Part shown: in pieces, positions 2,767 to 29,989 of the stretch
How the letters are laid out: every line of letters starts with the position of its first letter
How positions within the stretch are numbered: the first letter of the stretch is position 1
Source of the DNA: an uncultured Ruminococcus sp.
GTDB taxonomy: Bacteria; Bacillota; Clostridia; Oscillospirales; Ruminococcaceae
Direction of reading: 5' to 3'
DNA length: 64,000 nt
Assembly: GCF_947301925.1 (NCBI RefSeq)
Contig: NZ_CAMYUE010000002.1
Span: forward strand, 124,001 to 188,000
Translations under genes and position numbers: made by a program
Notes under the pieces: generated by a model
The model's input: only the letters and a program-made list of their open reading frames with translations
Told to the model about the DNA's origin: nothing
Databases searched by the model: none

Positions 2767-7095
<4,329 letters not shown>

Positions 7096-23528: not shown

Positions 23529-24035
23529 TCAGAACAGATCGAAATTGCCGAATGTGTTATCGTCGATAACATAGTAAACCTTGTTGATCTCGGGTCTAAC
23601 GTATACAACAACACTCTTAGCAGACTTTACCTTGGCGTCAGCCTTAGCCTTGTCGATAAGAGCTGTACCAGCTATCTCAGCACCGTTGTACTGGATAACA
23701 ACCTTTCTCTCCTCAACAGCAGCAGTCTTCTTTGCTGCGGGCTTCTTAGCAGCTGTAGCCTTCTTCTCAGCAGGCTTCTTAGCAGCAGTTGCCTTCTTCT
23801 CAGCAGGCTTCTTAGCAGCAGTTGCCTTCTTCTCAGCGGGCTTCTTAGCAGCTGTAGCCTTCTTCTCAGCAGGCTTCTTAGCAGCAGCCTTCTTCTCAGC
23901 GGGCTTCTTAGCAGCAGTTGCCTTCTTTTCAGCAGGCTTCTTAGCAGCGGGAGCCTTCTTAGCGGCAGCCTTCTTCTCCACAGCAGGAGCAGCAGCTGTC
24001 TCTACTACCTTTGTTTCTGCATTCTTCTCCGGCAT
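23529..24035 (-). CDS. Lys/Ala-rich histone-H1-like repeat protein with DUF6465-type C-terminus
   Basis: A 168-residue, very basic protein. Residues about 32-106 are about seven copies of an 11-residue unit (KKPAEKKATAA), like the tails of histone H1 and of bacterial nucleoid proteins. The C-terminal 60 residues form a small alpha/beta domain (KVVIQYNGAEIAGTALIDKAKA, then YVRPEINKVYYVIDD) that I take for DUF6465. It lies 19 bases downstream of HU on the same strand, with its own GGAGGAT site and a shared terminator. Nucleic-acid binding together with HU is therefore likely, but this is inference from charge and context. Confidence 0.8.
   Translation of the reverse strand: MPEKNAETKVVETAAAPAVEKKAAAKKAPAAKKPAEKKATAAKKPAEKKAAAKKPAEKKATAAKKPAEKKATAAKKPAEKKATAAKKPAEKKATAAKKPAAKKTAAVEERKVVIQYNGAEIAGTALIDKAKADAKVKSAKSVVVYVRPEINKVYYVIDDNTFGNFDLF
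23718..23942 (-). repeat. 33-bp coding tandem repeat (KKPAEKKATAA units)
   Basis: Roughly seven in-frame copies of a 33-bp unit; one is shortened to 30 bp and the last is diverged. The copies are close to identical at the DNA level, so the copy number could change by slippage or recombination. Confidence 0.85.
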
Positions 24036-27418: not shown

Positions 27419-28063
27419 CTAAACTATATACCTTCCAAGCAGTGCCCGATATGCCTTTTCAAGTACGGGAGCATTCTCCCCGAAGGCCTCCGGCGCAGCA
27501 AAATAAGTCTTTACCGCGCGGTCGAGATCCTTGATATACTCGCCTATGGCCTCGCCTGCCTGTTCCTCTGTAAGAGCACCCGTGTTTATGAGCCGCCGCG
27601 AAAAGCTGCCGTCGCCTATCTCGAAGCTGTACCCCTCAACGCCCAGCCCCGCAAGGTAGCTGTGCTCCAGCTTTGCCCTGTAGGCGAAAAAGCTGTGGAA
27701 CATATCTATAAGAGCGGCGCTCTGGGTGCGGATATTCACTCTCAGGGTACCAAGATACTGCTGAGGGACTCTTTCCAGCTCCACCTTATAGCTTATAGTG
27801 GGACGGTACTTGTATTCCAGCGCGGTCTTAACCGTCATAAGGGAGGGCGACCGCTGCTCCTGTATTCGGAAGCTGCTGTTCATCAGCTCGGCTATCTGGC
27901 CGAATATCTCTCTCATGCGCATTTCGGGAGTCACGCAGGACAGCCTTTCCGCAAGTATCTGGTTTATGAGGTTGGAGCGGCTGGTGCCCAGTCTGTAGGC
28001 CTGCTCGTCAACAGCCTTTATAACGTCGTCCATGAGGACGAGGCTGTACACGCTTTTTTTCAT
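27419..28063 (-). CDS. Ribbon-helix-helix domain protein upstream of clpB
   Basis: A 214-residue protein. Residues 1-45 look like a CopG/Arc-type ribbon-helix-helix (SVYSLVLMDDVIKAVDEQAYRLGTS in pattern, then RSNLINQILAERL), usually a dimeric DNA-binding domain. The remaining 165 residues are a soluble alpha/beta region that I do not recognise (blocks around PTISYKVELERVP and LDRAVKTYFAAPEAF). It is the first gene of a probable operon with clpB and has a consensus promoter with a perfect palindrome just upstream, so it could be an autoregulator that also sets clpB expression. This is inference; it might instead be a non-regulatory RHH protein. Confidence 0.65.
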   Translation of the reverse strand: MKKSVYSLVLMDDVIKAVDEQAYRLGTSRSNLINQILAERLSCVTPEMRMREIFGQIAELMNSSFRIQEQRSPSLMTVKTALEYKYRPTISYKVELERVPQQYLGTLRVNIRTQSAALIDMFHSFFAYRAKLEHSYLAGLGVEGYSFEIGDGSFSRRLINTGALTEEQAGEAIGEYIKDLDRAVKTYFAAPEAFGENAPVLEKAYRALLGRYIV

Positions 28064-28159: not shown

Positions 28160-28186
28160 AAAAAAAGTCCGCTCACAGGGAGCGGA
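28160..28186 (-). terminator. Strong terminator of the putative small RNA
   Basis: Stem TCCGCTC / GAGCGGA (28168-28174 / 28180-28186), followed on the minus strand by a run of seven U (28166-28160). Confidence 0.88.
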
Positions 28187-28414
28187 TAATTCGGCCCAAA
28201 CGGCTTTCACCGTTTAGCACTGTGGACCGAGCCATAGACAATAAGTTAAAAAAAGTTATTGAGAATAGAAAACATGAAAAAATTACAAATGAAAGGGGTT
28301 AGTTTTATTACTTGACAAAACTATTTCTATGGCGTGCAAGTGAACTAATACTCAGTATCAAGCACATGAGAGGGGAGGGTACTTGATATTGAATACCAAT
28401 AATCTTCATTTGCT
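28160..28414 (-). ncRNA. Putative structured small RNA with anti-Shine-Dalgarno C-rich stretches
   Basis: A 255-nt minus-strand transcript is predicted from a good promoter (28449-28421), with start near 28414 and an excellent terminator at 28186-28160. No open frame of note lies inside. Domain 1 (28414-28286) is closed by CAAATGAA (28412-28405) / TTCATTTG (28293-28286) right at the predicted 5' end. It contains a long hairpin whose 13-nt apical C-rich loop includes CCCTCCCCTC (28379-28370), and a possible H-type pseudoknot from ACTTG / CAAGT crossed with TAGTTTT / AAAACTA. A second C-rich segment AACCCCTTTCAT (28300-28289) lies near its end. After a T6 run, domain 2 holds TCGGTCC / GGGCCGA enclosing AACGG / CCGTT. 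Both C-rich stretches are complementary to ribosome-binding-site sequence. It matches no family I know (not tmRNA, SRP, RNase P or T-box). It could also be a 3' UTR of the upstream gene. Confidence 0.6.
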
Positions 28415-28420
28415 GATATT

Positions 28421-28449
28421 ATTATATTGCAAAACTGCCCGTTTGTAAA
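28421..28449 (-). promoter_or_regulatory. Promoter of the putative small RNA
   Basis: Minus strand TTTACA (28449-28444), 17 bp, TATAAT (28426-28421). An inverted repeat GTACAC / GTGTAC (28459-28464 / 28479-28484) lies just upstream. Confidence 0.72.
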
Positions 28450-28577
28450 TATACATTTGTACACCAAAATATAATAATGTGTACTTTTCTCAGTTTTTTG
28501 CGATTTTTTATTGTCAATTTTTTATAAATTTGTTTTCTGTTCTTACATATTTACATCTTATTTATAAAAAATCTTTG

Positions 28578-29960
28578 TTATTTTAATTTAAACAGGTTTT
28601 GTCCCGCGGATACGTTGAATTCCTCGCTGTCGTTTCCGTTTATAACTGTGTAGAAATTTGAACCCTCATGTATATCGGGTGAGAGCATCATCAGACAGCG
28701 GAAGTCAATGTGTGGTTCCATAGTCACAACCTGTGTTCCGTCCAGCACCATCTCCACAGAGCTGCCGCCGCTTACGGTCTCTCCCAGATCAACAACTATG
28801 AACGGGTGGTCGGCATACTTGGGAGTAGAAACTAAAGTACCTGCCGCATAGAGATAGCCTGATTTGTAGCTGAAGTTGCCTGCGGAATAGACAGAGTTCT
28901 TCTCCTCCTTATTGCCGTTTCCGCCCCGTATAACTGTATAGCCGCCATTGATATTCATAGTTCCCTGCGACTTGATACCGTTGGTACCTGCCGTAACATT
29001 TATGTTTCCATCGTCTATTGTAACATCAGTGTTGGCGATGATACCTGATTTACGGGAGTCTATATTATATGTACCGCTCTCAAAAACAATATCGTCATCG
29101 CTGTTTATACCGTGGGAGGCAGTTGCCGTAACGTTAAGTTCGCCGTTGCCCTTGAACTTGATAGTATCATTTGAGAATATTGCTCCCGTTTCGTGGATAT
29201 CCTTTTTCGCAACGCCGCTGGAAACGTAGTTTACCGTGCCTTCCTTTGACTTGATAGTGCAGCGCTTCGCCTCATCTATATAAATAGCAGGTGCAGATGA
29301 ATTGGATATGTCAACGCCGTTGAGGACTATCGTTACCTTGTCCTCTGTAGCTGCTTCGCCTGTCCTTACAACGATCTGTCCCTCTGAAACACTGCCCGTG
29401 AACAGGTAATCGCCTTCGGCTGTTACAATGACCTTAGAGCCCTCAACAGTAACATTGCTTCCCGTTACCTTGGGACTGCTTCCCAGTGTTATCTCCGCAG
29501 TGTACTCCTTGACTTCCTCGCCGCCGTTTCCGCCCGAGCCGCTTCCCGTACCGCTTCCGCCGCCCGATGACGAACCGCCCCCATTGGAACTTCCGCCGCC
29601 AGAATTATTGTCCGAGCCGCCGCCCGATGACGAGCCGCCGCCATTGGAGCTTCCGCCGCCATTCTTTGCGGTTGTGGTGGTCGCAGCCTTCTTGTCCCCT
29701 GCCTTCGTTGTAGTCGTATCCTTTTCCTTGCCGTCCTTTGCCGCTGTGGTGACTTCCTTGCCGTCCTTGTCGGTGGTCTTTTCGGCAGTCTCCTTTTCGC
29801 TTCCGCTCTTATCAGAGGACTCTCCCGATCCTGCGGAGTCAGATGTGGATGTCTGACTGTCAGTTACCTCAGATGAGCTTTTCTTGTCCTTTCCGCATGA
29901 GCAGACCGATGTCATTACCGTAAGAGCTGCAAATGCTGCCAATATCCTTCTATATTTCAT
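28578..29960 (-). CDS. Carbohydrate-binding lipoprotein, Cthe_2159-type beta-helix
   Basis: A 460-residue lipoprotein (candidate lipid-bearing Cys22 in the Cys-Ser-Cys at the end of the hydrophobic stretch). Residues about 25-150 are low-complexity: Ser/Asp/Lys/Thr, then Gly/Ser, a flexible surface linker. Residues about 155-400 form a right-handed beta-helix of the Cthe_2159 type, with repeating TIKSKEGT-, INSDDDIVFESG- and IDDGNINVTAGTNGIKSQG-like rungs. The founding protein binds polygalacturonate and calcium, so pectin binding is a reasonable guess. ATG 29960 is preferred to the GTG at 29969 because AAAGGAG fits it. It lies downstream of VTC and DUF4956 genes, a recurrent neighbourhood for this family. 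Confidence 0.8.
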   Translation of the reverse strand: MKYRRILAAFAALTVMTSVCSCGKDKKSSSEVTDSQTSTSDSAGSGESSDKSGSEKETAEKTTDKDGKEVTTAAKDGKEKDTTTTKAGDKKAATTTTAKNGGGSSNGGGSSSGGGSDNNSGGGSSNGGGSSSGGGSGTGSGSGGNGGEEVKEYTAEITLGSSPKVTGSNVTVEGSKVIVTAEGDYLFTGSVSEGQIVVRTGEAATEDKVTIVLNGVDISNSSAPAIYIDEAKRCTIKSKEGTVNYVSSGVAKKDIHETGAIFSNDTIKFKGNGELNVTATASHGINSDDDIVFESGTYNIDSRKSGIIANTDVTIDDGNINVTAGTNGIKSQGTMNINGGYTVIRGGNGNKEEKNSVYSAGNFSYKSGYLYAAGTLVSTPKYADHPFIVVDLGETVSGGSSVEMVLDGTQVVTMEPHIDFRCLMMLSPDIHEGSNFYTVINGNDSEEFNVSAGQNLFKLK

Positions 29961-29989
29961 AATATACACTCCTTTTTCCCTCCATATAC

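Follow-up and report, generated by a model that had tools for sequence, protein, structure and literature searches.

The window analyzed here is a stretch of 64,000 nucleotides from an uncultured Ruminococcus sp. The gene-free gap that an earlier note, made from the sequence alone, had named within it is present, and its minus strand holds a small RNA (sRNA) gene with a predicted transcript of 255 nt, running from about 28414 to 28160 (Table 1). Upstream of the sRNA lies a gene for a Cthe_2159-domain protein (28578–29969; Pfam PF14262), and downstream lies a gene (27419–28063) for a protein of 214 residues, whose ribbon-helix-helix match (PF01402, E 0.012) is below the cut-off. Elsewhere in the window, the minus strand at 23529–24035 encodes a DUF6465-domain protein that contains repeats of KKPAEKKATAA type. 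The names serS, clpB, plsY, LysR, aspartokinase, and HAD hydrolase were read by eye from the sequences.

Table 1. Positions of the sRNA gene, its parts and signals, and the duplicated unit of G020
Feature	Position	Strand	Remarks
sRNA gene	28160..28414	minus	predicted 5' end near 28414; predicted 3' end in U7 tract 28166-28160
Inverted repeat GTACAC...GTGTAC	28459..28484	minus	putative operator, just upstream of -35
Promoter TTTACA-17 bp-TATAAT	28421..28449	minus	11/12 consensus matches
P1, 5' domain	28336..28413	minus	long hairpin closed by GCAAATGAA/TTCACTTGC
Loop segment CCCUCUCAU	28366..28374	minus	near-invariant
P2 domain	28231..28333	minus	helix GCCATAGA/TCTATGGC around hairpin P3 and central stretch
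P3 hairpin TAGTTTT/AAAACTA	28300..28323	minus	weakly supported
Central stretch CCCCUUUCAUUUGUAAUUUUUUCAUGUUUUCUAUUCUCAAUAACUU...	28245..28298	minus	near-invariant, partly unpaired; proposed mRNA-pairing module
P4 hairpin CGGTCC/GGGCCG	28192..28229	minus	with inner stem
CAGUGCU bulge in P4	28216..28222	minus	near-invariant
Intrinsic terminator stem-loop	28168..28186	minus	7-pair stem, then U7; sequence varies among relatives
G020 duplicated unit	3204-3503 and 4279-4578 of C105	minus	

The -35/-10 pair with 17-bp spacing that the note had placed on the minus strand is borne out, and the context of this promoter, TATTG..AA...TTTGCaaTATAAT, is kept across 80 aligned upstream rows. The promoter call rests mainly on this conservation, because a scan of the region gives 5 promoter-like sites where 2.5 are expected. 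The predicted terminator with its U7 tract is likewise found, the T run following the stem directly; the terminator scan returns one site against 0.3 expected. The inverted repeat upstream of the promoter has the consensus AAgTAcAc.ata.T.tAgTTt.GTgtA in the 80 rows, and of the five places in 864 kb that match the looser pattern GTACA/TGTAC, this is the only one with the arms GTACAC...GTGTAC. Because the repeat before the promoter is conserved, switching of the sRNA by a transcription factor is suggested; as a speculation, that factor could be the ribbon-helix-helix neighbor.

Comparison of the flanks at 30 loci shows, at the level of sequence, a gene that keeps its own promoter and terminator while the genes around it change. 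The Cthe_2159-type gene is 5' of the sRNA in 23 of 30 loci, and L021, L023, and L027 have a DUF4956 gene there instead. None of the tested proteins is found upstream in L009, L024, L029, and L030, of which L009 is cut there by a contig end. On the 3' side, clpB is present in 30 of 30 loci and the 214-residue gene in 29, being absent in L023. The sRNA thus persists without its downstream gene and with a different upstream gene, which argues that it is independent of both. The constancy of the 3' side, on the same strand and in the same order, together with the terminator at the end of the RNA, could also fit a 5' leader, riboswitch-like or attenuator, of the ribbon-helix-helix gene and clpB. 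However, a promoter-like TTGACA-17-TAAGAT sits between the sRNA terminator and the ATG of the 214-residue gene, with the TTGAC conserved at 24 of the 30 loci in the alignment. The spacing from sRNA to gene is variable, L023 has the RNA without that gene, and conservation within the RNA is lowest in the terminator stem. We consider a leader function very unlikely.

The sRNA is widespread in the genus. In a DNA search of 60 genomes, 33 of the 36 from the genus, the source genome included, match strongly (E ≤ 3.2e-14), the exceptions being G003, G014, and G016; the 24 genomes from other genera of the order contain no comparable match, the two weak ones having E values of 0.0016 and 0.006. R1, a model that covers the center and the 3' part of the sRNA, matches 33 of 40 genus genomes, once each. 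It misses the same three genomes and also G428, G429, G431, and G030, the last of which retains other sRNA modules. Among 394 genomes of the order, R1 matched two, the source genome and a second one from its genus, in a search of limited sensitivity that scored the ten best candidates per genome, so that remote relatives could escape; it matched none of the 20 genomes listed from the family's other genera. An exact 26-base pattern retrieves 78 stretches from named genomes, two of which (L167 and L198) come from one metagenome-assembled genome (MAG). Seventy-five are labeled Ruminococcus, and the pattern is found in R. flavefaciens FD-1, 007c, ATCC 19208, MA2007, and ND2009; the other labels are Anaerotruncus sp. 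MC2020, an Alistipes MAG, and a Bacillota MAG. An RNA profile built from an alignment of 30 sRNA sequences (A1) matches all 78 stretches, in part only for L141 and L143 (from position 126 on), L148 (from 36 to 213), and L167 (cut by the contig end). The statement that the layout belongs to no named family holds in an Rfam 15 scan of the window, which gives no family at the gathering score; a permissive scan of the gap gives two matches, both to other families and at chance level, the better one with E 0.63.

The 255-nt transcript is predicted to fold with a minimum free energy of −73.8 kcal/mol (z −6.97), and none of 200 shuffles is as low. A 59-pair structure on A1 has 88.6% of cells paired and 26 pairs changed on both sides, in 71 such cells. 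Shuffles of A1 give 11.4 pairs and 20.2 cells, with 0 of 500 reaching the observed values, and slid controls give 13–25 pairs and 21–38 cells, with 29–40% of cells paired; the structure was derived by folding the same A1 sequences, which favors it over the slid versions. A second set comprises 83 distinct sequences, drawn from 81 nhmmer loci among other sources, with L167 (contig end) and rows sharing their first 200 bases with a kept row left out. In this set P4 has 90 both-side-changed cells, compared with 26.6 in shuffles and a slid maximum of 21, and 93.6% of its cells are paired; its inner stem has 44 (shuffled 17.5, slid maximum 7). The corresponding values are 29 for the closing part of P1 (shuffled 9.3, slid maximum 18), 53 for its lower stem (20.7 and 46), 38 for its upper stem (8.0 and 32), and 28 for P2 (10.6 and 22). 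P3 has 23 cells against 12.2 in shuffles, with a slid control higher, at 37, and 72.7% of cells paired.

The long hairpin with a C-rich loop, the second C-rich segment, and the second structured domain described in the note are all present, and the covariation check that it proposed finds the helices supported by compensatory changes in both the 30- and the 83-sequence sets. The closing helix that it had drawn, CAAATGAA/TTCATTTG, fares less well. It can form, with 89.5% of cells paired in the 83 sequences, but has 8 both-side-changed cells (shuffled 3.7, slid maximum 10), whereas its 5' strand co-varies better, with the 29 cells given above for the closing part of P1, with a local partner, TTCACTTGC (28344–28336). 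The distal closing helix may be an alternative state. Read by eye, a 9-codon frame, ATGTTTTCTATTCTCAATAACTTATTTTAA, is often intact, as is the frame ATGAAAAAATTACAAATGAAAGG of the opposite strand, which might be expected if the locus held conserved mini-ORFs or a DNA element and not an RNA. However, one missing T breaks the other-strand frame in L024, L028, and L030, and the 9-codon frame is changed or its stop lost in L021, L027, and L029 (both by eye); a Shine-Dalgarno sequence is not seen at the frames, and sequence changes follow base pairing. This reading can be practically dismissed. Occurrence in 33 of 36 genomes, the compensatory changes, and the Rfam result together support an independent structured sRNA gene outside Rfam, as the note had it, and we have very little doubt that the gene is real and, as far as searched, restricted to the genus.

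Conservation and accessibility coincide in several segments of this structure. In the 83 sequences, the mean majority-residue frequency is 0.94 for the loop, 0.94 for the CAGUGCU region, and 0.937 for the central stretch, which is about 50 nt long and U-rich, compared with 0.81 for the 5' strand of P1, 0.73 for P3, and 0.56 for the terminator. Predicted unpaired probabilities were taken for 78 of the 83 sequences, five with changed modules being left out. At a threshold of >0.7 all 78 have an open loop, whereas three segments of the central stretch are open in 43, 59, and 30 and the P4 bulge in 50. The motif [AT]CAGTGCT is present in 76 of 83 sequences. Conserved stems are thus accompanied by conserved accessible segments, fully for the loop and in part for the central segments. 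The second C-run varies among relatives (CCCC, TCCC, TTCC, or TCAT), and it is the long U-rich stretch 3' of it, not singled out by the note, that is conserved. The modules can be lost separately: L141 and L143 lack the 5' hairpin and keep the center and the 3' bulge, and L035 and L036 lack the central stretch and keep the loop and the bulge (TAGTGCT in L035, CAGTGCT in L036). At L141:3463-3731 and L143:6862-7130 the sequence that stands in place of the entire 5' hairpin domain looks unrelated to it. The sRNA variant at L034:1290-1629 (minus strand) carries additional insertions in both the 5' domain and the central region, which by eye resemble hairpins.

The two C-rich segments had been described as complementary to a G-run followed by ATG. 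Their complements are ATGAGAGGGGAGGG and AAATGAAAGGGG, so that ATG precedes the G-run and this part of the proposal does not hold. That both segments are active anti-Shine-Dalgarno parts is upheld in part: the loop is accessible and near-invariant, but the strongest antisense partners use the central U-rich stretch. We infer, with a probability of about two in three, that the sRNA acts as a trans-acting antisense RNA through its unpaired stretches. For the translation-blocking role that had been ascribed to it, specific antisense leaders in relatives and a multi-site unit in G020, both described below, speak in favor, whereas bulk enrichment of pairing at translation starts is absent.

That absence is seen for the 638 translation starts of G000 (864 kb), which pair with the loop or the central stretch no better than with 12 shuffles of each, and the target search with the loop that had been recommended is thus negative at this level. 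The loop antisense GAGAGGGGAGGG, with one mismatch, occurs at 8 places in G000, among them the sRNA gene itself and one ribosome-binding site (plsY-like by eye, L052), and its reversed control at 13. Long antisense patterns in G000 find the sRNA gene itself only. With up to three mismatches, AAAAAATTACAAATGAAAGG occurs at 81 places in 36 genomes, 31 of them at the sRNA gene and the remaining 50 to be set against 43 in the control, and a wobble-tolerant 19-mer has 4 matches beyond the sRNA and 6 in controls, one of the 4 being a credible gene start. Samples of G000, G008, and G024 contain 14 contiguous 18-base complements, two at sRNA genes and 12 outside; shuffles average 4.4, and 5 of 60 reach 12, which makes the excess borderline. 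The named stretches that surround the sRNA gene have no 18-base complement apart from the sRNA itself, and their reversed control has 6. Contiguous 16-base complements, real versus reversed, number 25 and 19 in G000, 9 and 4 in G008, 10 and 7 in G024, and 14 and 16 in the named stretches. In scans of viral sequences, neither of two long antisense stretches is matched exactly, and a 14-mer from the loop, too short to be meaningful, occurs in 90 stretches. In the species of the window itself, the candidate target searches established none.

A bulk signal that is not enriched would also be expected of an RNA acting mainly by protein binding, for example to a U-rich or C-rich single-strand binder, with the near-invariant stretches as binding sites and the antisense leaders incidental or lineage-specific. 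The central stretch, over its 50 or so U-rich nucleotides, is more constant than a seed requires and stays constant where no pairing-type leader of the kind described below is found, and CAGUGCU is without a known pairing partner here. Weighing against protein binding, long specific antisense partners top the sampled windows in two species, the G020 unit matches its own sRNA over 24 bases, and the modules are lost separately. As the main mode of action we consider it rather unlikely and return to antisense pairing.

The specific partners emerge from 12 secondary places in the 60-genome DNA search that were looked at (10 of 14 fetched stretches, with L039, L041, L046, and L048 left out, plus one place in L034). 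Six of these match a leader or start region in antisense (L037, L043, L047, L049, L044, and L042), two fall in the G020 unit, three overlap ORFs (L045, L050, and L034), and one is ambiguous (L040). L037, L043, and L047 have in common a TTTTTTAAGGTTATTTTAAG-like promoter box and a membrane protein of 32–40 residues. One of two peptides tested matches PF12664 (DUF3789) above the cut-off (E 1.8e-6) and the other weakly (E 0.022); searches with the promoter region and with a peptide alignment added further copies. In 30 windows upstream of members of this DUF3789-type family, some with approximate starts, the leaders of G004, G033, G008, G032, G001, and G024 have pairing energies with the central stretch of −30.5 to −39.6 kcal/mol (z −4.4 to −7.3), and the other 24 windows give −9.1 to −25.8 kcal/mol (z −2.5 to +2.0). 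The G008, G032, and G001 leaders were found through the antisense match itself, those of G033 and G004 also surfaced in a pattern search with three mismatches, and that of G024 was found without using pairing.

Genomic scans with 90-nt windows (step 45, both strands) place these leaders at the top. In G008 the DUF3789 leader ranks first at −38.8 among 17,720 windows of 400 kb (mean −12.4, sd 4.0), by a small margin over a second window, in coding sequence, at −35.6. In G024 it comes first after two windows of the sRNA gene, at −36.9 among 14,556 windows of 329 kb, the next being −33.0. The predicted duplexes cover the leader and the Shine-Dalgarno sequence of the mRNA. On a loose alignment of the leaders, a wobble count gives 28 changes kept and 93 broken. 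In G008, a LysR-like mRNA offers 19 contiguous paired bases, wobbles allowed, over its Shine-Dalgarno sequence and AUG, a single case with no counterpart in a G000 paralogue (47% identity). On balance, the DUF3789-type mRNA is a likely target in one group of species. DUF3789-type genes adjoin serS, in convergent orientation, in many genomes and are sometimes tandem (L199-L228; L269-L298). The TTTTTTAAGGTTATTTTAAG-like direct-repeat promoter box recurs at several places across the genus (L091-L096 and many matches to positions 34–59 of the promoter-region query) and resembles a response-regulator box.

A hydrophobic peptide of 32–40 residues, a direct-repeat promoter box of TTTAAGG type, and a complementary leader occur together in six genomes, a constellation that recalls an antitoxin RNA silencing a toxic small membrane peptide under a regulated promoter, in the manner of IstR and TisB. 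The sRNA is, however, far more widespread than this toxin-like partner: the pairing-type leader is found in those six genomes only, within one sub-group of DUF3789-type genes, and the near-invariance of the central stretch extends far beyond them. DUF3789-type paralogues commonly lack a pairing leader, and the promoter box also occurs with weaker pairing (−27.8 for L096 of G017, −22.8 for L216 of G012). An antitoxin is decidedly unlikely to be what the sRNA primarily represents.

A different kind of partner is found in G020, where a 300-nt non-coding unit on contig C105 (L377) is duplicated with 99% identity at a spacing of 1,075. Each copy has three antisense sites, TTATTGAGAA(T/C), two of which continue AGAAAACAT; a hairpin-plus-T run, terminator-like by eye, follows. 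A 114-residue ORF and an aspartokinase-like gene are located upstream of the units. Over 24 nt, site 1 is perfectly complementary to the sRNA of G020 itself, including AATAATTTT, where most relatives have AATAACTT and some others share the G020 form. The 14 best-pairing windows of the 26-kb contig are all in the units, at −35.8 to −29.4 against a mean of −13.6 (sd 4.2). We regard the unit as a lead for an sRNA sponge, a plausible identification though somewhat short of probable.

These observations can be joined into a working model. The sRNA would be transcribed independently, throughout the genus, from its own promoter to its own terminator. Its unpaired loop CCCUCUCAU and the central stretch UUUCAUUUGUAAUUUUUUCAUGUUUUCUAUUCUCAAUAA would pair with mRNA leaders, covering the Shine-Dalgarno sequence and sometimes the start codon, and thereby prevent ribosomes from loading or lead to decay of the mRNA. 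One target, in a single group of species, would be the mRNA of the DUF3789-type membrane protein beside serS, and in one species the non-coding unit with three antisense sites per copy may serve as a sponge. In its most developed form, the sRNA would be a hub with separable antisense modules (the loop CCCUCUCAU, the central UUUUUUCAUGUUUUCUAUUCUCAA, and the 3' CAGUGCU), the first two able to cover Shine-Dalgarno sequences and start codons, silencing a small membrane-protein mRNA in one lineage and countered in another by a purpose-built tandem three-site sponge RNA. We put forward this full picture tentatively, as a possibility and not as an expectation.

Among known systems, the sRNA presents a mixture of features. 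RsaE/RoxS are Firmicutes sRNAs with a C-rich unpaired loop able to mask Shine-Dalgarno sequences and with an intrinsic terminator. The loop and the terminator are common to both, but the Ruminococcus sRNA is much longer, is found here in one genus only, and has its best antisense partners in the U-rich central stretch; the covariance models, with no Rfam family at the gathering score in the window, do not assign it to RsaE/RoxS. Like 6S RNA (RF00013), it is structured, genus-wide, and present in one copy per genome where found. A 6S identity is rejected, the sRNA having no 6S match and G000 having a separate 6S RNA on another contig as its sole RF00013 match (G000:C1:206688-206872). IstR is a trans-encoded sRNA that keeps a small hydrophobic toxic peptide, TisB, silent. 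The likeness is that in six genomes the Ruminococcus sRNA, likewise encoded in trans, is complementary to an mRNA leader of a small membrane protein, but it is conserved without that partner and the peptide is only putatively toxin-like. The chbBC intergenic decoy is an sRNA sponge, and the G020 unit resembles it in being non-coding with its three antisense sites per copy; the G020 candidate, unlike the decoy, is found in one genome only.

Overall, the kind of RNA is known, and the family is absent from Rfam 15. Among the literature matches listed, none describes an sRNA of the genus Ruminococcus, although a shallow search makes this a weak test. The conserved segments ease annotation of the sRNA in further genomes. 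R. flavefaciens and its kin are important fiber-degrading gut bacteria, and a conserved sRNA with a candidate target and a candidate sponge offers a testable entry into post-transcriptional control in Ruminococcus.
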